In this document: one piece after another, positions 856 to 33,737 of the stretch
Position numbering within the stretch: the stretch's first letter is position 1
How the letters are laid out: each line of letters begins with the position of its first letter
Source of the DNA: Hahella sp. HN01
Lineage (GTDB): Bacteria > Pseudomonadota > Gammaproteobacteria > Pseudomonadales > Oleiphilaceae
Length of the DNA stretch: 63,474 nucleotides
Assembly: GCF_018986435.1 (NCBI RefSeq)
Contig: NZ_JAHMIN010000013.1
Coordinates: forward strand, 101,134 to 164,607
Direction of reading: 5' to 3'
The notes under the pieces: model-generated
The model's database searches: none
The model's input: only the letters and a program-made list of their open reading frames with translations
What the model was told of the DNA's origin: nothing
Made by a program: the position numbers and the translations under genes

Positions 856-2718
856 ATGCTCAATAAATACCCACTTTGGAAAAATCTGCTCGTTGTCATA
901 GTGCTGATGATGGGCTTTATTTACGCCTTACCGAATTTGTATCCTGATGACTACGCTTTGCAGATAAGCGGATCTCGCGGCTCCATCGGGGTTGACGAGA
1001 GCGTGCTGAAAAAAGCCACCGACGCCCTGGACGAAGCGGGCATTGCATACGGCGAAGCGAAAGTCGGCGAGAAGAACATCATCATACGCTTTGCGGACAA
1101 CGATACTCAGTTGGACGCACAGCCTCACGTCAAGAGCGCTTTGGGCAATGACTACGTTGTGGCGTTGAACCTGGCGCCGACAACGCCGGCATGGTTGTCC
1201 AGTTTGGGCGCTGCGCCCATGAAGCTGGGTCTGGATTTGCGTGGAGGGGTGCACTTCCTGATGGAGGTGGATCTGGCGAAAGCGGTCGCCACGACAATGG
1301 AAATTACCCAGGGCGACATTAAAACCAAGCTGAGAGAAGAAGGGTTGCGTTACAAGTCGGTGGATATTCTGCCGCCAAAGCAGATCTCTGTCGGCTTCCG
1401 TGACGAAGATGATCGCGATAACGCATTATCTCTGGCGCGTCGTGAGTTTGGCGACTTTTTGGCGGAAAGCGCTGAAGAGAACGGCTTGTTTATGGTGAAG
1501 CTGACCCTGCTGGAAAGCCGGGCGAAAGAAATTGAAGACTACGCCATTTCCCAGAACTTAAGCACCTTGCGTAATCGGGTTAACGAGCTGGGCGTCGCCG
1601 AGCCTTTGGTTCAGCGTCAAGGACGCGGGCGTATCGTTGTGGAATTGCCGGGCGTGCAAGACACGGCGGAAGCCAAGCGTATTTTGGGCTCCACTGCTAA
1701 CCTGGAGTTCCGCCTTGAGGCGCGTCCAGATGCTTCGGCGGGTTCTATTGAAAAGTTTGAGTTCCGCTCAGAGCCCCGCACTGCAAGCTTGGAGCGCGAC
1801 ATCATTATTACTGGCGGCAGCGTCGCCAATGCGCAGCAGTCCTTTGACCAGAATGGTCGTCCTGAAGTTAACATTAAGCTGGACTCCTTGGGCGGCAACA
1901 AAATGTTCCACATCACCAAGGATGCTGTGCAGCGCAATATGGGCGTGCTCTTCGTTGAATACAAAGAAGACGTGGATACCAAGTCCACAACTGGACAGCC
2001 CAAGAAGCGCCGCTACGTAGAAAAGAAAATCATCAGTCTCGCCACCATACAGTCGCCGTTAGGAAACAGCTTCCGTATAACGGGGCTGGACTCTGTATTT
2101 GAAGCCAAAGAACTGGCTTTGCTGTTGCGTTCCGGCGCATTGGCGGCTCCAATCTATTTTGTTGAAGAGCGTACTGTCGGTCCCAGCTTGGGGCTAGAGA
2201 ACATTAAAGACGGCGCCACTTCCGTAGCTATTGGCTTCGTGCTGGTCATGCTGTTTATGATCGTTTACTACCGTGTATTCGGTATCGTGGCCAATATCGC
2301 TTTGGCGGCCAACGTCTTTATTCTGATTGCGGTCATGTCCTTGCTGTCGGCGACGCTGACTCTGCCGGGTATTGCGGGTATCGTATTGACGGTGGGGATG
2401 GCGGTCGACGCCAACGTGCTGATCTACGAACGAATTCGTGAAGAGTTGCGTAACGGGCTGCCGCCTCAGTCGGCGATTCATGCTGGTTATGATCGCGCAT
2501 TTGTGTCTATTTTTGACGCCAACGTGACCACTTTGATTGCTGCGCTGATCTTGTTCGCAATCGGCACAGGCCCGGTCAAAGGTTTCGCTGTTACGCTGTC
2601 TATCGGGATTCTGACCTCCATGTTTACTGCGATTACCGTAACTCGCGCAGTAGTCAATATGATTTACGGCGGCCGCAATATTGGCAGTTTGTCCATTGGT
2701 GGCGTCAAGCAAGGTTAA
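856..2718 (+). CDS. secD: Protein translocase subunit SecD
   Basis: 620-residue inner-membrane protein that with SecF uses the proton gradient to help complete secretion of preproteins through SecYEG. It has an N-terminal membrane segment (about 10-27), the conserved LGLDLRGGVHF signature after it (about 124-134), a large periplasmic region and a C-terminal block of five membrane segments (about 450-600) with the GMAVDANVLIYERIREE motif typical of SecD. A GGGAG ribosome site lies upstream of the ATG. Length matches the E. coli protein. It is 12 nt upstream of secF. Confidence 0.97.
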   Translation: MLNKYPLWKNLLVVIVLMMGFIYALPNLYPDDYALQISGSRGSIGVDESVLKKATDALDEAGIAYGEAKVGEKNIIIRFADNDTQLDAQPHVKSALGNDYVVALNLAPTTPAWLSSLGAAPMKLGLDLRGGVHFLMEVDLAKAVATTMEITQGDIKTKLREEGLRYKSVDILPPKQISVGFRDEDDRDNALSLARREFGDFLAESAEENGLFMVKLTLLESRAKEIEDYAISQNLSTLRNRVNELGVAEPLVQRQGRGRIVVELPGVQDTAEAKRILGSTANLEFRLEARPDASAGSIEKFEFRSEPRTASLERDIIITGGSVANAQQSFDQNGRPEVNIKLDSLGGNKMFHITKDAVQRNMGVLFVEYKEDVDTKSTTGQPKKRRYVEKKIISLATIQSPLGNSFRITGLDSVFEAKELALLLRSGALAAPIYFVEERTVGPSLGLENIKDGATSVAIGFVLVMLFMIVYYRVFGIVANIALAANVFILIAVMSLLSATLTLPGIAGIVLTVGMAVDANVLIYERIREELRNGLPPQSAIHAGYDRAFVSIFDANVTTLIAALILFAIGTGPVKGFAVTLSIGILTSMFTAITVTRAVVNMIYGGRNIGSLSIGGVKQG

Positions 2719-2730
2719 GGAGGCATAACT

Positions 2731-3648
2731 ATGTCTGATGAAAAAGTTTATAACTTTATGGGCATAGCGAAGCCTGCGCTGGCTTTGTCTGTGATAATGA
2801 TCATTGTATCTATCGTGTCCATCGCTACTCGCGGCTTGTCTTTCGGGTTGGATTTTACCGGCGGTACGCTGGTAGAGGTGGAGTACGCCAAAGCGCCGCA
2901 AATCAATGATGTGCGGCATCAGCTTGAGGCTCACAAATATGAAAACTTCGTTGTGCAGAAGTTTGGTTCTGACACCAGCATCCTGGTTCGTTTGCAGCAA
3001 GAGCACAGCGAGTCCATCGGAACGGAAGTGGTGAATGCGCTGTCTGCGGACGGGGCACAAGTGAGTCTGAGTCGTTCCGAGTTCGTTGGATCTCAGGTCG
3101 GCGAAGAGTTGCGCGAACAGGGTGGATTGGGCCTGCTGCTGGCGCTTGGCGTCATCATGCTCTACATCGCTTTTCGCTTTCAGTTCAAGTTCTCTGTTGG
3201 CGCTGTATTGGCGTTGGTGCATGACGTCATTATCACGGTAGGGATGTTCTCGCTGTTTCAGTGGGACTTCGATTTGAACGTGTTGGCGGCGGTGTTGGCG
3301 GTAATCGGTTATTCATTGAACGACACCATCGTTGTGAGCGACCGCGTGCGTGAGAACTTCCGCCGCCTGCGTGAGGAAACGCCGGTAAGCATCATTAATA
3401 TTTCTTTGACGCAAACCCTGTCCCGTACAATCGTTACTGGCCTGACTACTTTGCTGGTTCTGGTGGCGTTGTTCTTGTTCGGCGGTCCTGCGCTTAAAGG
3501 GTTCTCGACGGCGTTGATAGTAGGTATTGTTGTCGGTACCTATTCCTCAATATATGTTGCGAGTAACCTGCTGCTGATCATGAATATCAGTAAAGAAGAT
3601 TTGATGATTCCTGTGAAAGAAGGTGCTGAGTTGGATGATCGCCCTTAA
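2731..3648 (+). CDS. secF: Protein translocase subunit SecF
   Basis: 305-residue partner of SecD. The sequence shows an N-terminal membrane segment, the GLDFTGGTLVEV signature at about residues 38-49, a periplasmic loop and five further membrane segments including the SLNDTIVVSDRVREN motif characteristic of SecF. The ATG follows a strong AAGGAGG site, and the gene is 12 nt after secD, so translation is probably coordinated. It ends in a small hairpin overlapping the stop codon and is then insulated from suhB by a bidirectional terminator. Confidence 0.97.
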   Translation: MSDEKVYNFMGIAKPALALSVIMIIVSIVSIATRGLSFGLDFTGGTLVEVEYAKAPQINDVRHQLEAHKYENFVVQKFGSDTSILVRLQQEHSESIGTEVVNALSADGAQVSLSRSEFVGSQVGEELREQGGLGLLLALGVIMLYIAFRFQFKFSVGAVLALVHDVIITVGMFSLFQWDFDLNVLAAVLAVIGYSLNDTIVVSDRVRENFRRLREETPVSIINISLTQTLSRTIVTGLTTLLVLVALFLFGGPALKGFSTALIVGIVVGTYSSIYVASNLLLIMNISKEDLMIPVKEGAELDDRP

Positions 3649-8901: not shown

Positions 8902-10038
8902 ATGTCAGGCGCCAACGCTAAAATTAATTTACTGGGAATGAATCGTTCCGATCTCGAGTCTTTTTTCGAGTCGTTGGGAGAGAAAAAATTCCGCGCCACT
9001 CAGTTGATGAAGTGGATGTATCACCTTGGCGTATCTGACTTTGACCTCATGACGAATATGAGTAAGGCGCTACGGGAAAAGCTGAAAGAAGTAGCTGAAG
9101 TTTCCGTGCCAGAAGTTATTTATGAAGATATTTCTGCTGACGGCACCCGTAAGTGGGTTATGCGATTGGCCGGCGGCAACAGTATTGAAACCGTTTATAT
9201 TCCGGATAATGGCCGGGGTACATTGTGTGTTTCTTCTCAGATAGGATGCTCCCTCGATTGCAGTTTCTGTTCTACTGGAAAGCAGGGATTCAACCGTAAT
9301 TTAAACTCCGCTGAAATAATCGGTCAGTTGTGGATAGCAGCGAGATCTTTCGGCGATTATGATCTTTCCAAAGAGCGCTACGTCACCAACATTGTCTTTA
9401 TGGGAATGGGCGAGCCCTTATTGAATTTCGACAACGTCGTGCGCGCCTGCGATGTCATGATGGATGACTTCGGCTTCGGTATTTCCAAGCGCCGACTGAC
9501 CGTCAGCACTTCTGGACTTGTTCCCGCCCTTGATAAGCTGGGCGATGTGACGGATGTCTCTCTCGCCATTTCCTTGCATGCGCCAAATAATCCGTTGCGA
9601 GATGTGCTAGTTCCAGTCAATAAAAAGTATCCGATAGAAGAGCTGTTGGCGGCCTGTCATCGTTATTTGAGCAAACTGTCCGATAAGCGTCGAATTACAG
9701 TGGAGTACACTCTGATTGCAGGTGTAAACGACAGTGAGACGCACGCAGGTGAATTGCGTGACTTATTGCGCGACCTGCCATGCAAGATTAACTTGATTCC
9801 ATTCAACCCGTTCCCCAACAGCGGTTATGAGCGTCCTTCTCGAAACGCGACATTAAGGTTCCAAAAAATACTGAGCGATGCGGGCTATGTCGCCACCGTT
9901 CGTACTACACGTGGCGATGATATTGATGCCGCTTGCGGCCAGTTAGTGGGACGCGTTGAGGATCGGACGCGGAGAAGCCAGAAGTATATCCCTTTGCAAA
10001 ACATTAATGTTTCCCCTGACGGTAGAGCTTCTGCTTAA
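8902..10038 (+). CDS. rlmN: Dual-specificity 23S rRNA/tRNA adenine-C2 methyltransferase RlmN
   Basis: Radical-SAM enzyme that methylates A2503 of 23S rRNA and A37 of some tRNAs. The cluster motif CSLDCSFCS, the [13 protein letters not shown] segment and the C-terminal catalytic cysteine in DAACGQL are all present. ATG 8902 follows AAGAGG and matches the family N-terminus ([15 protein letters not shown]); a longer frame reaching into ndk is spurious. 378 residues is normal. ndk-rlmN-pilF-rodZ-ispG-hisS is a conserved order. Confidence 0.95.
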
Positions 10039-10047
10039 TTAAGCAGA
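10030..10047 (+). other. 18-nt perfect palindrome over the rlmN stop codon
   Basis: TCTGCTTAATTAAGCAGA includes the TAA stop of rlmN. There is no T-tract, so termination is doubtful; 3'-end protection or a protein site is possible. Confidence 0.4.
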
Positions 10048-10137
10048 TTAGTCGGTGGTGGAGGGGAGTTTCCTGAAAAAGAAAGGCTGTTTATAACCTT
10101 GAAAATATCGCTGGCATTGATAGTTAAGTTGAGAAAA

Positions 10138-10926
10138 ATGGAAAACCTCAGGCACGCTTTTAAAACAGCACTAATGTTAGTCTTAATATCCGGTGCTGTT
10201 GCAGGGTGCGTAACTACTGTAACTGGTCCCTACACTAAAAAGGCTTCAGAAGAGAAGGCCGCCCAACAATATGTCCAACTTGGACTGGCGTATTTTCAGC
10301 AGGGAGATATGGAAAGCGCTTTATTAAAGCTTCAACGAGCTTTGGAGATAAAGCCTGATAATGCGGAGGCATTGGCGGCGATGGGACTGGTTTATCAGCG
10401 CCAAAAAGAACCATTTTTGGCGGAAAAACAATTTAAATCCGCACTTCGCTCTGATGCGGATTTTACCAGAGGGCGCACTTATTATGCGGCTTACCTGTAT
10501 GAGCAGGGCCGCTTTAAGGAGGCCGTGGAGCAGTTTGAAAAAGCCTCTAGCGATGTGAACTATGAGGGGCGCGCTCAAATATTTAGTAATATAGGTTTGA
10601 TACGTTTAAGGCTGGGAGATATTGACCAGTCTATTAAAGCGTATGAGAAGTCACTAACTCTGAGGCATGGTCAGCCCAATGCTGTGCTCGCATTATCATC
10701 TTTATATTTTGAAAAGCGTGAGTTAGAGAAAGCGGACAAATTATATGGCGCATTCTGGGAATCAGTGCGCAGAGGCGGGGCTTCACACTCGCCCGCGAGC
10801 TTGGCGTTGGGAATTAAAATCGCCAGGGAGAAGAAGGATTTGAATGAGGAAGCATCTCTGATGTTGTTGCTGAAGAATATGTTTCCCGACTCCGCTGAAT
10901 ATAAAACGATGAAAGGAAGTAGTTGA
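10138..10926 (+). CDS. pilF: Type IV pilus assembly lipoprotein PilF/PilW
   Basis: Outer-membrane TPR lipoprotein acting as pilotin for the PilQ secretin. The N-terminus is a lipoprotein signal with lipobox VAGC, followed by TPR repeats (for example YVQLGLAYFQQGDMESALLK) through most of the 262 residues. I prefer ATG 10138; a TTG at 10099 would give a longer, less typical signal peptide, and neither has a strong ribosome site. Position between rlmN and rodZ is as in Pseudomonas. The gene ends one base before rodZ. Confidence 0.88.
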   Translation: MENLRHAFKTALMLVLISGAVAGCVTTVTGPYTKKASEEKAAQQYVQLGLAYFQQGDMESALLKLQRALEIKPDNAEALAAMGLVYQRQKEPFLAEKQFKSALRSDADFTRGRTYYAAYLYEQGRFKEAVEQFEKASSDVNYEGRAQIFSNIGLIRLRLGDIDQSIKAYEKSLTLRHGQPNAVLALSSLYFEKRELEKADKLYGAFWESVRRGGASHSPASLALGIKIAREKKDLNEEASLMLLLKNMFPDSAEYKTMKGSS

Positions 10927-27547: not shown

Positions 27548-28504
27548 ATGTCGCACTCAAGCTCTCATCAGCATGATCATCACGCTGGTCATGCGCATCA
27601 CCATGGCCATTTTCACGGACCGTCCTCGGCCCCGAACTATAACAAAGCCTTTGCCTGGGGTGTGGCCCTGAATTTTGGGTTTGTCGTGGTGGAGGTGATT
27701 TATGGACTTATCGCCGACTCATTGGCGCTGATCACTGATGCAGGGCACAACTTAAGCGATGTGCTGGGTTTACTTCTGGCCTGGGGCGCCTCTTATCTAG
27801 CGACGCGTACGCCGACCTCCCGACGTACTTACGGTTTTCGTCGAGGAACGATTCTGGCTTCCCTGTTGAGCGCGATTCTTTTACTGCTGGCATTGGGAGC
27901 GATCGCCTGGGAGGCCGCCCACCGAATCAATCAACCTGTCAGGGTGGATGGCGTGACCGTAATTGTCGTGTCGCTCATTGGCGTGGTTATCAATACCGCG
28001 ACTGCGTTGATGTTTCTGAGTGGTCAAAAGCACGATCTCAATATCAAAGGCGCCTTTTTACACATGGCGGCGGATGCCGGCGTTTCATTTGGCGTGGCGG
28101 CGGCGGGAGTCGTTATCATGTTTACCGGCTGGTTGTGGCTTGATCCGGTGATCAGTCTGGTCATTGTCGCCATTATCCTGTTTGGAACCTGGGGGCTATT
28201 TCGGGATTCGCTCAATCTCGCCATGGACACAGTGCCTTCTCATATCAACCCTGATGAAGTGGAGGCGTTCTTGCGCAGCTATGCCGGCGTGACGGATATT
28301 CACGATCTTCATATCTGGGCGATGAGCACCACGGAAGTTGCGCTAACCGTTCATTTACTTATTCCCAATCAATCTGTGGATGACGCCTTTCTCGGCGAAT
28401 TGGCGCTTCAATTGAACGAGCGCTTCCGTATTGGCCATAGCACCGTCCAGGTCGAAAGAGGGGACGGAGCGTCCTGTCATTTGGCTCATCCTGGAAGTCT
28501 GTAA
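27548..28504 (+). CDS. Cation diffusion facilitator (Zn/Co/Cd exporter, CzcD/ZitB type)
   Basis: 318-residue inner-membrane antiporter. The first 25 residues are His-rich (HQHDHHAGHAHHHGHFHG). Six membrane helices follow, with the metal-site pairs ITDAGHNLSD in helix 2 and LHMAADAGVSFG in helix 5 (the usual HxxxD residues), and a C-terminal cytoplasmic domain (about 230-318). ATG 27548 follows GAAAGGAT. A possible promoter TTGGAT-N17-CATTAT lies at 27434-27462. The metal is not determinable from sequence; zinc is most likely. Confidence 0.92.
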   Translation: MSHSSSHQHDHHAGHAHHHGHFHGPSSAPNYNKAFAWGVALNFGFVVVEVIYGLIADSLALITDAGHNLSDVLGLLLAWGASYLATRTPTSRRTYGFRRGTILASLLSAILLLLALGAIAWEAAHRINQPVRVDGVTVIVVSLIGVVINTATALMFLSGQKHDLNIKGAFLHMAADAGVSFGVAAAGVVIMFTGWLWLDPVISLVIVAIILFGTWGLFRDSLNLAMDTVPSHINPDEVEAFLRSYAGVTDIHDLHIWAMSTTEVALTVHLLIPNQSVDDAFLGELALQLNERFRIGHSTVQVERGDGASCHLAHPGSL

Positions 28505-28879: not shown

Positions 28880-29704
28880 ATGAAAAAAACACAATTATTA
28901 GTTTGGGGCGCGGTAATCGGCGGTTTATGCGCTGTGACATACCAATTCATGCCAGGCGGGGAAAGCGCGTCGACGACGCAGGAGCAACAAGCCGCCGCCG
29001 GCGCTCAAAATTCCGCTGCAGCGTCGCCCGCGCAATCAGTTCAATCCCCACAACAGACGGCCTCTAAATCAACCCCTGGCGCAGCGAAGGACTCCGAACC
29101 GGAGCTCCCCGATTACGCCATGAACAACGAAGAGTATCCCTCCATTGAATTTCGCATGACGGAAATTGAAGCACGCCGCGATGGTCGCGCTTTTGATCAG
29201 GAAGAAGTCGTACGTGCGATGTGGGAGCCCTCTGCATGGAAGAGCGATGACGGTATCGCCGACCAGCTCGAATTGAGCGATGCGGATCGTTTCGACGGTC
29301 GGGAGTTTATTCGCTTCAGCCCGATGAAGCTGGAGTCCCTGATGCCAGGGGATGAGATGGAAGTGCCTGTGCTGCCGCAAAACGCGACTTATCAAATGGT
29401 GGTGGATCGGGTGGAGTCCCATGGCGACGGCAACGTCACCTGGTACGGACATCTGAAGGATTTCGAACAGGATAATCAGGTTTCTTTTACCCGCGGAGAA
29501 AATCTTACCTATGGCGGCGTCACCACCCCGGAAGGGCTGTATGTCGTTGAGGCCCGTGGCGACAAAGGATGGATCGTCAACAGCGGCACCTTATTCAAAG
29601 GTGAAGATTTACACGTTGAAGTACCCGAATTGGCGGATGTGAACAAAGCCGATGAAGGAACGGCGTCTCCGGATCAAAGCACCGGCGGGCCTATCGCTCA
29701 ATAA
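28880..29704 (+). CDS. Membrane-anchored protein resembling a metalloprotease prodomain
   Basis: 274 residues: a signal anchor (about 5-25), a low-complexity Gln/Ala/Ser/Pro linker (about 28-80), and a globular domain (about 85-252). The domain contains PGDEMEVPVLPQ, NVTWYGHLKDF, GGVTTPEGLYVVE and GWIVN. By pattern this resembles the N-terminal propeptides of bacterial reprolysin-type (M12/M72-like) proteases. The next gene, 80 nt downstream, encodes such a protease without a propeptide. I therefore infer a free-standing, inner-membrane-tethered prodomain or foldase for that enzyme, organised like the lipase foldases. This is inference from pattern, not from a search. Confidence 0.55.
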   Translation: MKKTQLLVWGAVIGGLCAVTYQFMPGGESASTTQEQQAAAGAQNSAAASPAQSVQSPQQTASKSTPGAAKDSEPELPDYAMNNEEYPSIEFRMTEIEARRDGRAFDQEEVVRAMWEPSAWKSDDGIADQLELSDADRFDGREFIRFSPMKLESLMPGDEMEVPVLPQNATYQMVVDRVESHGDGNVTWYGHLKDFEQDNQVSFTRGENLTYGGVTTPEGLYVVEARGDKGWIVNSGTLFKGEDLHVEVPELADVNKADEGTASPDQSTGGPIAQ

Positions 29705-29784
29705 GGATAAGCGTTATCGCCCGGGGTAGGAGGCCAGGTCGCACAGTGGCTGGCTAAAAAAAACAGACAGAGAGAGTAATAACG

Positions 29785-31260
29785 ATGAAAAGGAAATTAA
29801 CCGGAAGTATGTCTAAATGGTTGTCCTGCTTGACTCTGGCGGCTGCTCCCCTGGGCGCGCAGGCGGTGACAGTGGATATTATGGTGGTGTACGACGCCTA
29901 TTCCGCAGGACGCTTTGGCGGCGAACCGGCAACGGCCATTCGTAGCTGGGTGGACCAAGTTAACGCCATGTATCAAAACAGCCAGGTAGACGTGCAACTG
30001 CGTTTGGTCGGCGCTTTCGCTCACGAAGAAAGCGGTTCCAGCATGGGAGAAGTGCTTGGAAACCTGCGTGTGGATAACTGGGTTATCCAGAAGCGTGAGG
30101 AAGTCGGCGCGGATTACGTTACGCAAGTACATAAAACCGGTTCCTGCGGCGTTGCATACGTCGCTGTACATAAGGATTGGGCGTTCAGCGTCACAGGTCC
30201 AGATTGTGGGCCTCAAGTACTGGCTCACGAAGTCGGACACACCATGGGTCTTAACCACTCCCGTCGTCAGGGCGATCAAAGCGGATCGCGTTATCGCTAC
30301 GGCCTCGGCCATGGCGTTGACGGCGCTTTCGGCACCATTATGACGTATGAGTGGTTGTTCAACGCCCCGAAAGTCGCCAAATTCTCCAACCCGAGAGTGC
30401 AGTGCAACGGGCTTCCCTGCGGCGTTCCTGCCGGTCAGGCGCAAGAGGCGGATGCGGCTCAGGCGATCAACAATGTGCGTAATGAGATTGCTGCGTTTAA
30501 ACCGACTAAAACTGACGGCGGCAACACTTCCGGCGACAAAGTGTCTGTATTCCAGCATTACAACTACGCGGGTTACAGCGCGGCGTTGGGCGAAGGCCAG
30601 TATCGCCTGAGCGACTTGACCTCCCGCGGCGTTCGCAATGATGATCTTTCCTCAGCCCGCGTGCCTTCCGGCATGGTCTTGGAACTGTATCAGCACGATA
30701 ACTTCGGCGGCGCAAAGACCGTTTATACTTCAGATGTATCCGGCTTCCCGCTATCCGGCGTGAATGACACGACTTCCTCGATTATCGTCAAGAAAAGCAG
30801 CGGCGGCGGTCAGAGCGGAGCTCAACCAGTTGATAACGGCGTATACATGCTGCAGGCCAAACACTCCAGCAAGTGCGCAGATGTATACGGCGGCAAGCAG
30901 GAAGCGGGTACGCCTGTCATTCAGTGGAGCTGTCACCAGGGTAACAACCAGCGCTGGAACTTCACCCATATCAAAGATGGATACTATGAAGTCAAAGCGG
31001 CGCATAGCGGCAAATGTCTGGACGTCTCCAACTCAAGCAGAAGCAACGGCGCCACGGTGCAACAATGGTCCTGTAATGGCAGCGCAGCTCAGCAATGGAA
31101 AGCAGTGGACAACGGCGACGGCACGTTCCGTCTGGTGTCTGGCGTGAGCGGCAAAGTGTTTGATGTTAAAGAAGTCTCAACGGCTAGCGGCATGGCTATC
31201 CATCAGTGGGACTGGGTTGGCGGCGACAACCAACGCTGGTATCTGAAGCGCGTGAAGTAA
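29785..31260 (+). CDS. Secreted metzincin metalloprotease with beta-gamma-crystallin and ricin-type domains
   Basis: 491 residues. Signal peptide 1-27 (cleavage after GAQA), then the catalytic domain starting at once with VTVDIMVVYDAYS. Zinc site HEVGHTMGLNH at 148-158 and Met-turn IMTYE at 185-189. A beta-gamma-crystallin module follows (about 252-338) with calcium-type motifs NDDLSS and NDTTSS. Last is a ricin B-like beta-trefoil (about 345-491) with three QxW repeats (NNQRW, AAQQW, DNQRW). No propeptide is present, unlike most relatives. It is co-directional with the putative prodomain gene and ends at a good terminator. A secreted enzyme that binds carbohydrate or matrix is likely. Confidence 0.88.
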   Translation: MKRKLTGSMSKWLSCLTLAAAPLGAQAVTVDIMVVYDAYSAGRFGGEPATAIRSWVDQVNAMYQNSQVDVQLRLVGAFAHEESGSSMGEVLGNLRVDNWVIQKREEVGADYVTQVHKTGSCGVAYVAVHKDWAFSVTGPDCGPQVLAHEVGHTMGLNHSRRQGDQSGSRYRYGLGHGVDGAFGTIMTYEWLFNAPKVAKFSNPRVQCNGLPCGVPAGQAQEADAAQAINNVRNEIAAFKPTKTDGGNTSGDKVSVFQHYNYAGYSAALGEGQYRLSDLTSRGVRNDDLSSARVPSGMVLELYQHDNFGGAKTVYTSDVSGFPLSGVNDTTSSIIVKKSSGGGQSGAQPVDNGVYMLQAKHSSKCADVYGGKQEAGTPVIQWSCHQGNNQRWNFTHIKDGYYEVKAAHSGKCLDVSNSSRSNGATVQQWSCNGSAAQQWKAVDNGDGTFRLVSGVSGKVFDVKEVSTASGMAIHQWDWVGGDNQRWYLKRVK

Positions 31261-31285: not shown

Positions 31286-31325
31286 AAATCCCCTGGCGCG
31301 CTTTGACTGGCGGCTGGGGGATTTT
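31286..31325 (+). terminator. Terminator after the first metalloprotease
   Basis: AAATCCCC (31286-31293) and GGGGATTT (31317-31324) enclose a 23-nt loop; the right arm ends in a T-run. Confidence 0.6.
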
Positions 31326-31366: not shown

Positions 31367-32050
31367 TTACTTTCCAATTAGCTGGATGTCCATCGAGTTT
31401 GCGAAGGTCGCAAGAGTGGCTTTGCATCCAAACTGAGAAAACAACATGAGGGCGATGTCACTCGCACTGGCCGATTTTAAGCTTGCTGGAATAGTGTAAG
31501 GCCAGGGGCTGTTCAGGGCGTGGGCCATTATCAGGGAGTGAATGTTTTGCCTGAGCAGGTTGGGATCATCTGTATCCGCCGCCACAATGCGATCGAGTAC
31601 TAATTCTGAACCGGTGTTCTGATAGTGGACCTTGTACATGAGAACAGAGGTCCAGCTCCTTACGAAATAAAACCACTCGCCGAAAGCATAAATATCCCAT
31701 TTCACGTCCATGGACTCGGCTTTCGACACAATTCCTTCGAGCTGTTCTCCGCCATGTCGGTAGTGGATGTCACAAGGAATTTCTTTGCCGCCTTCGATAA
31801 CTTGGTCAATGTACCGCCTGCCATCGTCGGCACGGCTGGCTACATAGTTTTCCGCGATGGATTTGTCGGCGGTAGTGGCGATAATTTTTAAAGTGATGCA
31901 GCGAATATCCAAAATAGGCGCGTCAAATGGATTACCTTCGCCTACTTCGATCCATACCGGCTGTTCAAGAGAGCGGGTATCGACATGCTCGGCTTCACTC
32001 TTTTTCTCCGGCTGTTTCTTTGTACTTTTGCGTTTAAAGAATTCGAACAT
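31367..32050 (-). CDS. Conserved-looking hypothetical cytoplasmic protein
   Basis: 227 residues, basic N-terminus (MFEFFKRKSTKKQPEKKS), then a mixed alpha/beta protein without signal peptide or membrane helix. The motif ALNSPWPYTIPASLKSASAS lies in the C-terminal third. I chose ATG 32050; a longer start at 32083 adds a less typical N-terminus. It sits between the two protease paralogues on the opposite strand, so it was probably inserted between or retained after their duplication. Function unknown. Confidence 0.6.
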   Translation of the reverse strand: MFEFFKRKSTKKQPEKKSEAEHVDTRSLEQPVWIEVGEGNPFDAPILDIRCITLKIIATTADKSIAENYVASRADDGRRYIDQVIEGGKEIPCDIHYRHGGEQLEGIVSKAESMDVKWDIYAFGEWFYFVRSWTSVLMYKVHYQNTGSELVLDRIVAADTDDPNLLRQNIHSLIMAHALNSPWPYTIPASLKSASASDIALMLFSQFGCKATLATFANSMDIQLIGK

Positions 32051-32513
32051 AGTTAGTACGCCTTTTATCCATATTTTAACCAACCAGTACTTGTCATTAT
32101 AGGTCGATGCGTCTGGTTAGCGTTTACTCAAAAGCATCACTATCGATCGGGTCTAAGTCGCGTCGTTTTGTCTAAAAAAACGGCAAATACTTATTATTTG
32201 TGATTGTCTCCTCAATTTAACGATTTTACTGACTATTATATAACGTAAATATTAATAGGCCTATGTAGGTTTATGTGATTTATTTCATTGTTAATCAATA
32301 GTTTGAATTATTCGTAGGCTCTAAGTACTAGCTGCTTTAGGCGATGGTGGATAAAAGGCTCAAATGATAGATTTTCTGCGCCGTTGACGTTCCGTCGAGT
32401 TCTGGTTTGTGATCTATTTTCCGTTTTCCACGCTGCGGAAGTCCTATCCGGATAATAACGAAGTTCGTTATCGGGAAACTCCCATAAATGGAGCAGGAAA
32501 GTTGGTATAAAAA
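32051..32513. other. AT-rich intergenic region upstream of the second metalloprotease
   Basis: 463 nt, clearly AT-rich in its left two thirds. A possible promoter is TTGACG (32384-32389), 18 nt, TGTGAT (32408-32413). No supported gene lies within it. Confidence 0.4.
32455..32471 (+). promoter_or_regulatory. Inverted repeat in the leader of the second metalloprotease
   Basis: ATAACGAA (32455-32462) and TTCGTTAT (32464-32471) around one base, 42 nt before the ATG. It has the size of a dimer operator; the regulator is not known. Confidence 0.4.
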
Positions 32514-33737
32514 ATGAAAAACAGCCTCAAAAAAATTCTGGCCGCTGGCGTTCTCGCGACGGCTGCATCCACTTCCCAAGCCGTCACTGTCGATCTGATG
32601 GTGGTGTATGATTCTTATACCTCAAGCTATTTCAAAGGCGATGTAAACACCGCTGTGCGTAACTGGGTTAGTCAGGTGAACAATATGTACACCAACAGCC
32701 AGATTGACGTGCAATTGCGCCTGGTTGGCGCATACGCCCACGAAGAGACTGGCTCAAACATGACGGAAGTGTTGGGCAACCTGAGAGTGGACTCATGGGT
32801 AAACCAGAAGCGTCAGGAAGTGGGTGCGGACTATGTGACTCAATTGCATCGCACCGGCTCTTGCGGCGTGGCTTATGTCGCTGTCGACCGTAACTGGTCA
32901 TACGGCGTGGTTGGACCCAGCTGCGGACCCACTACGTTGGCGCACGAACTCGGCCACACCATGGGCCTGAACCACTCCCGCCGTCAGGGCGACCAGAGCG
33001 GGTCGCGCTATCGTTACGGCCTGGGTCATGGCGTTGATGGCGTATTCGCCACGATCATGACTTATGAGTGGCTGTTCAACGCTCCTAAAATCGCCAAATT
33101 CTCTAACCCCAACCTGCAATGCAACGGTTTGCCTTGTGGTGTTGCGGCGGGCAACTCCAACGAAGCGGACGCAGCACGCGCTATCAATAACGTGCGTAGC
33201 GAAATGGCGGGCTTCATGCCGACAAAGGTCGGCGGCGGCAACCCCGACGGCGGCGATAACAATGGTGGGGACAATAATAACGGCGGCGACAACAACAATG
33301 GCGGCTCCAATATTTACACCATGAAAGCCAAAAACTCCGGCAAGTGCGCCGATGTCTACGGCGGCGATCGTCGTGATGGCGCTTCCGTCATCCAGTGGAG
33401 CTGTCACGGCGGCAACAATCAGCGCTGGCAGTTTATTCACCTGGGTAATGGCGTTCATCAGATCAAATCTGTGAACAGCGGCAAGTGTCTCGATCTGTTC
33501 GGCGCCAGCCAGTATAACGGCGCGTATGCGGGTCAGTGGACCTGTAACAACTCCAACAATCAGAAGTGGCAGGCGTTCAAGAACAGCGACGGAACTTATC
33601 GTCTGATCGCGGTTCACAGCGGCAAAGCGCTGGACGTAGACGCTGCGGGCGGCACCTACAATGGCGCAAGACTGCGTCAGTGGGATTGGGTTGGCGCTAA
33701 TAACCAGCGTTGGATTATTACCAGCGCAGGCCAATAA
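32514..33737 (+). CDS. Secreted metzincin metalloprotease with ricin-type domain (paralogue)
   Basis: 407 residues, paralogue of the protease at 29785. Signal peptide 1-23 (STSQA), catalytic domain starting immediately, zinc site HELGHTMGLNH at 144-154 and Met-turn IMTYE at 181-185. The sequence around the zinc site (144-176) is almost unchanged between the two enzymes while the codons differ. Instead of a beta-gamma-crystallin it has a Gly/Asn/Asp linker (about 240-265) before the ricin-type trefoil (266-407, repeats NNQRW, NNQKW, NNQRW). It has no propeptide either, so it would depend on the same trans-acting prodomain if that model is right. Confidence 0.88.
   Translation: MKNSLKKILAAGVLATAASTSQAVTVDLMVVYDSYTSSYFKGDVNTAVRNWVSQVNNMYTNSQIDVQLRLVGAYAHEETGSNMTEVLGNLRVDSWVNQKRQEVGADYVTQLHRTGSCGVAYVAVDRNWSYGVVGPSCGPTTLAHELGHTMGLNHSRRQGDQSGSRYRYGLGHGVDGVFATIMTYEWLFNAPKIAKFSNPNLQCNGLPCGVAAGNSNEADAARAINNVRSEMAGFMPTKVGGGNPDGGDNNGGDNNNGGDNNNGGSNIYTMKAKNSGKCADVYGGDRRDGASVIQWSCHGGNNQRWQFIHLGNGVHQIKSVNSGKCLDLFGASQYNGAYAGQWTCNNSNNQKWQAFKNSDGTYRLIAVHSGKALDVDAAGGTYNGARLRQWDWVGANNQRWIITSAGQ

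Follow-up and report, generated by a model that had tools for sequence, protein, structure and literature searches.

A Stand-Alone Relative of Metzincin Prodomains, Predicted to Be Membrane-Anchored, Encoded beside Two Secreted Metzincins of Hahella sp. HN01

How are two secreted metzincins that lack a pro-region of their own folded and kept inactive before they leave the cell? The question is raised by a locus in a 63,474-nucleotide stretch (the window) of contig NZ_JAHMIN010000013.1 (C25) from the 7.1 Mb genome of Hahella sp. HN01. The gene of a protein designated P0001 ends 80 bp before the gene of a metzincin (metzincin 1), and the gene of a second one (metzincin 2) follows after 1253 bp, with an opposite-strand open reading frame (ORF) between the two protease genes. 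P0001 is homologous by profile and by fold to CpaB, the chaperone of the Acinetobacter protease CpaA, and its domain also occurs fused in front of metzincins. We consider it very probable that P0001 is a tethered prodomain acting in trans, which would fold the neighbouring metzincin, hold it inactive and hand it to the type II secretion system (T2SS).

A preliminary description, made from the DNA letters, held that both proteases start their catalytic fold right after the signal peptide. The profile matches (Mep72, NF052434, and Reprolysin_5) begin at residue 29 of metzincin 1 and residue 25 of metzincin 2, directly after the putative signal peptide; therefore, neither enzyme has a propeptide. 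The signal peptide and reprolysin-type catalytic domain of metzincin 1 are followed by a sub-threshold crystallin match and a ricin-B lectin domain, and those of metzincin 2 by an N/G/D-rich linker and a ricin-B lectin domain. The two catalytic domains are identical at 165 of 215 positions and score 205.1 and 213.8 bits against the Mep72 model, the matches lying in the catalytic domain and below the cut-off of 645.

The same description took the gene before the first protease to encode a signal anchor, a low-complexity linker and a stand-alone prodomain-type domain, a layout that it compared to that of the lipase foldases. An AlphaFold2 model built on a 22-row alignment fits this anatomy. The domain is confidently modelled, with 137 residues at a predicted local distance difference test score (pLDDT) of at least 90, and the C-terminal tail is of low confidence (pLDDT below 50 at residues 243–247 and 251–271). 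Every segment singled out from the letters falls within the second half of the domain, modelled as a small beta barrel. Across the 22 aligned relatives, these segments have columns that never vary, namely G157 and D158 in GDEMEVPVL, W188 and G190 in VTWYGHL, G213 in GGVTTPEG and G230 in GWIVN; P249 in the tail is also invariant. From the modelled helix and the analogy with CpaB, P0001 would be anchored in the inner membrane with its domain in the periplasm.

Searches with P0001 alone were of little reach. A Pfam scan assigned it no family, a sequence search of the PDB found no match, and a search of the genome contigs returned no relative, while a second scan with an alignment (A1) led to 22 loci. 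Against the NCBIfam models, P0001 reached 54.4 bits for CpaB (NF033512; curated cut-off 90) and 39.2 bits for BamI (NF052435; curated cut-off 180). By these scores, it is kin to two characterised metzincin partners without being an equivalog of either. Profile A3, composed of 30 rows of stand-alone domains among which CpaB was not included, found CpaB in the PDB at an E value of 2.4e-13; another profile search matched CpaB at 2.7e-5. A3 scores P0001, itself one of its rows, at 138.5 bits. It gave a match in 55 of the 390 order genomes scanned, with E values up to 1e-3, and in 8 of 299 from across the phylum, with E values up to 1e-4. With a narrower profile, A2, matches came from 2 of the 369 class genomes scanned, and P0001 as a single query matched 24 of 293 genomes of the order. 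After structure realignment, CpaB was by far the best fold match to the P0001 domain, followed, at 6–12% identity, by the pro-regions of ADAM17, fragilysin and metalloproteinase-II. The top 50 of Foldseek listed neither ADAM17 nor fragilysin, and fatty-acid-binding barrels come after CpaB there. A further structure comparison matched the pro-regions of ADAM17 and metalloproteinase-II.

The preliminary description regarded a trans-acting prodomain shared by two metzincins as a new arrangement. This part was not supported, as the tethered chaperone–metzincin arrangement is already in print. CpaB is an anchored chaperone whose loss abolishes secretion of CpaA (PMC4713064). BamI binds Mep72 and, in Escherichia coli, counters the toxicity of that protease (PMC4334185), and Table 1 of PMC4713064 gives the neighbour of Mep72, printed as PA2872, as its putative chaperone. 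In a 2026 paper, tethered steric foldases comprise two classes, one being the lipase foldases and the other the chaperones of T2SS proteases (PMC13381987). The Hahella locus differs from these systems in its details. CpaB (PDB 6o38) shares 15% identity with P0001 in the alignment; cpaB lies after cpaA (PMC4713064), whereas the P0001 gene precedes that of its metzincin, and the window locus has two metzincins. CpaA carries four immunoglobulin-like repeats (PMC7542363), unlike the window enzymes with their C-terminal ricin-B domains. BamI, which pairs with Mep72 in Pseudomonas aeruginosa (PA2782/PA2783), resembles P0001 in having a related domain encoded just upstream of a Mep72-type metzincin, but Mep72 bears carbohydrate-binding modules (PMC4334185) instead of ricin-B. 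The pro-regions of ADAM17, fragilysin and metalloproteinase-II lie within the protease chain, and P0001 is a separate protein. The foldases Lif, LipB and LipH have a membrane anchor, a disordered linker and a dedicated chaperone domain, as is predicted for P0001, and their genes adjoin that of a T2SS client (PMC13381987, PMC4713064) as the P0001 gene adjoins that of a metzincin. They differ in their lipase client, in a helical chaperone domain, where the P0001 model is mainly a beta barrel, and in that the lipase is reported to be active while bound (PMC13381987). P0001 is a new subfamily member of the CpaB/BamI group, and its locus is ordinary for that family.

The association with metzincins was conserved in a survey of the neighbourhoods of stand-alone relatives. 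A frame with the HExxHxxG motif lay within 500 bp in 53 of the 64 distinct relatives, on the same strand in all 53, and the pairing is therefore not due to chance. The chaperone gene came first in 38 of these loci and the protease gene in 15. Since both orders occur, the link between chaperone and metzincin survives changes of gene order. Among the remaining 11, three have a metzincin with HExxHxxS, three have a frame that begins like a metzincin but lacks the motif, and three lie at the edge of the available sequence; two (L059 and L065) are real exceptions.

The same domain was also found in cis. In the A3 scan of the order, 17 matched frames exceeded 400 residues, the other listed rows having 111–316, and 15 of the 17 carried HExxHxxGxx[HD] downstream of the domain; the two that lacked it, L161 and L162, hold three copies of the domain. 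The long frames of the phylum scan (three) and class scan (one) were likewise fused metzincins, for a total of 19 of 21. L079, found independently through its protease, matched a 42-row profile of stand-alone domains at 39.7 bits, and L115 matched it at 44.8 bits. In all, the domain precedes the zinc motif in 20 proteins, plus one frame that is truncated before the motif. Profiles made from cis domains only and from trans domains only aligned with a probability of 99.5% (E 6e-23), so that the two forms are homologous. A tree of 84 domains, 21 of them cis, was poorly resolved; it required a minimum of seven changes between cis and trans, of which well-supported branches force one. From these sequence comparisons, the reading of the CpaB/BamI group as split-off prodomains is well supported. 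No such kinship was apparent with the pro-regions of about 200 residues of the stronger Reprolysin_4 proteases. Before that scan, 4 of 19 loci lacking the HExxH pattern were removed (L075, L078, L083 and L087); 14 of 16 fused proteins, including one from the Hahella genome itself (L074), gave no significant match in the pro-region. L084, which scored best among these 14 (E 0.0023), matched at residues 403–458, outside the pro-region.

In many members a short motif directly follows the domain, such as D-Y-V-I-P, D-F-L-I-P or D-A-I-Y-P in trans and, at the same position, D-F-V-V-P, D-Y-L-I-P or D-F-L-I-P in cis. Among representatives less than 50% identical, the pattern [DH]-x-x-x-P occurred in 12 of 28 trans tails, against a shuffled mean of 0.74 and maximum of 5, and in 9 of 20 cis tails, against a shuffled mean of 0.90 and maximum of 5. 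Of the 12 matches in trans, at least two (L014 and L130) look misplaced. A slightly narrower pattern in the unthinned sets gave 28 of 60 trans tails, where shuffling yielded a mean of 1.69 and a maximum of 6, and 5 of 13 cis tails, where it yielded a mean of 0.50 and a maximum of 4. Both patterns were drawn up after inspecting these same tails, with kinship handled only by the 50% identity cut; the counts exclude L113, which is cut off, L161 and L162, and the unthinned one also the cis frame of L109. Many relatives have aspartate at the start of the motif, while P0001 (H245-V-E-V-P) and the relatives L092, L094 and L098 have histidine. Precedents exist for such a tail: that of CpaB blocks the active site of CpaA (PMC7542363), the ADAM17 prodomain combines a barrel core with a C-terminal loop in the groove that places Cys184 on the zinc (PMC11248996), and fragilysin-3 uses an aspartate switch (PMC9629494). 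Because of the motif and these precedents, we propose that an aspartate or histidine switch may be supplied in trans by the tail.

Chaperoning, inhibition and T2SS export by P0001 would then follow the examples of CpaA/CpaB and Mep72/BamI. P0001 would be a metzincin pro-region made as a protein of its own, held at the inner membrane by its N-terminal helix and flexible linker. After Sec export, its domain would meet the neighbouring metzincin in the periplasm, bind that enzyme's catalytic domain and aid its folding, and the tail would be laid in the active-site cleft, with His245 probably near the zinc, keeping the enzyme inactive. The metzincin would be passed to the T2SS, whose secretin (GspD) the genome encodes with a score over the cut-off, and released outside without the catch. 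If P0001 were only a folding and export chaperone with no latency catch, its likeness to prodomains would reflect a shared small-barrel fold. The published role of CpaB as a chaperone on which secretion depends (PMC4713064), the same layout in lipase foldases (PMC13381987) and the fatty-acid-binding barrels in the Foldseek listing agree with this reading, but it seems unlikely in view of the cis fusions, of the CpaA active site blocked by the CpaB tail and of the Mep72 toxicity relieved by BamI. The opposite reduction, to an immunity-type inhibitor that guards the periplasm as AprI does for AprA and has no folding role, has behind it the name and published interpretation of BamI (PMC4334185). 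It is very unlikely, as CpaA secretion is abolished by the loss of CpaB, CpaB is by a wide margin the best match to the fold and the window proteases have no pro-region of their own.

Whether P0001 also serves metzincin 2 is a separate matter. It could, and a precedent for two clients exists in LipB of P. aeruginosa, which serves two lipases (PMC4713064). The genome encodes four Mep72-type metzincins, all of which lack a pro-region, judged by reading or by where the profile match starts, against only two P0001-type domains at an E value of 1e-3 or better: P0001 and a BamI on contig C65, over its cut-off (209 bits) and beside a Mep72 over its own (799.6 bits). These numbers and the likeness of the two catalytic domains favour a shared chaperone. 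The chances are close to even, if slightly short of it, that P0001 serves metzincin 1 only and that metzincin 2 is a separately transcribed duplicate maturing alone or with the C65 BamI. An inverted repeat found by reading at 31286–31324, 3′ of metzincin 1 (AAATCCCC/GGGGATTT), was not among the elements reported by the scan and could be a terminator; together with the opposite-strand ORF, it suggests a separate transcript for metzincin 2. The distance between the protease genes points the same way, as does the metzincin on contig C52, near which the A3 scan found no P0001-type gene. In a count of 45 loci, reaching about 5 kb each way and with a strict filter on the catalytic N-terminus by which a second metzincin could be missed, one chaperone accompanied one metzincin in 32, and one accompanied two in a single locus, the window itself. 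Ten loci scored zero metzincins; nine of them, all but L065, have one by the 500-bp motif count. Two other loci, from Pseudomonas PIC25 and P. indica (L092 and L094), were considered as additional examples of a single chaperone beside two metzincins but rejected, since their 727-residue frame, judged by eye, is unlike a secreted Mep72-type protein.

The kinship between cis and trans forms is a useful and testable idea, while the locus alone is ordinary. A comparison of CpaB with a zymogen has been made in print in one sentence; homology of CpaB and BamI to cis prodomains was not found stated in the literature searched, and the CpaA–CpaB structure paper may say more. The idea connects the literature on membrane chaperones of T2SS proteases with that on metzincin zymogen prodomains, those of ADAMs included. 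It may tentatively be widened: CpaB and BamI would descend from prodomains of the ADAM/fragilysin lineage, with more than one passage between cis and trans and a zinc-switch tail in both, and the Hahella locus would hold a reusable, tethered catch with a histidine switch for two metzincins. If so, a covalent single-use catch and a tethered reusable one would be two evolutionary options for the same domain, pairs that occur naturally in fused and in split form would be available for comparison, and the short tail is predicted to be the inhibitory element.

Table 1. Positions of the features in the window and the basis of each assignment.
Feature	Position	Strand	Basis
P0001, 274 aa; stand-alone, predicted anchored prodomain-type chaperone/inhibitor, kin of CpaB and BamI	28880..29704	+	Profile and fold matches
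Candidate N-terminal anchor helix, residues 9-23	28904..28948	+	Model helix; hydrophobic by reading; topology after CpaB (PMC4713064)
Low-complexity linker, A/Q/S/P rich, residues 24-77	28949..29110	+	Sequence; pLDDT <50 at 23-70
Folded prodomain-like domain, residues 78-242; barrel core ~136-242	29111..29605	+	AlphaFold model; fold and profile matches
Candidate switch tail, residues 243-250, H245-V-E-V-P249	29606..29629	+	Conservation; putative function after CpaB tail (PMC7542363)
Metzincin 1, secreted, 491 aa	29785..31260	+	ORF and profile matches
Metzincin 1 catalytic domain, reprolysin-type	29866-30510	+	Profile match
Zinc motif HEVGHTMGLNH, metzincin 1	30226..30258	+	Sequence
Metzincin 2, secreted, 407 aa; possible second client	32514..33737	+	ORF and profile matches
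Metzincin 2 catalytic domain	32583-33227	+	Profile match
Zinc motif HELGHTMGLNH, metzincin 2	32943..32975	+	Sequence

Some further observations concern individual loci. In Gilvimarinus algae (L109), a trans pair and a cis frame (9555–10453) are separated by about 4 kb, and the locus ends before the zinc motif of the cis frame. In L170, a stand-alone chaperone (1099–1761) and a metzincin (1763–3180) are 1 bp apart and the tree places the chaperone among cis forms, making the pair a candidate for a recent split or a frameshift. Two frames of 428 and 432 residues (L161, 3089–4375, and L162, 3225–4523) carry three tandem prodomain-like copies, with no metzincin motif in the flanks examined; L161 scores 133 bits against the BamI model, and the two are possible multi-headed inhibitors. 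The closest relatives of P0001 sit in Pseudomonas, Paucimonas and Aquabacterium records, and genome G190 was the sole match among the 17 listed other genomes of the Hahella family in the A3 order scan; the patchy spread perhaps stems from horizontal transfer. The 238-residue ORF between the proteases (31367–32083, minus strand) had no Pfam or NCBIfam match at an E value of 0.01. A CDF cation-efflux gene with a zinc-transporter dimerisation domain (27548–28504, plus strand) lies directly upstream of the P0001 gene. At least three histidines are present in the last 12 residues of 5 of 62 stand-alone proteins; such His-rich ends (HQHPH, for example), seen in the chaperones of L093, L102, L104, L107 and L111 and absent from P0001, possibly bind metal.
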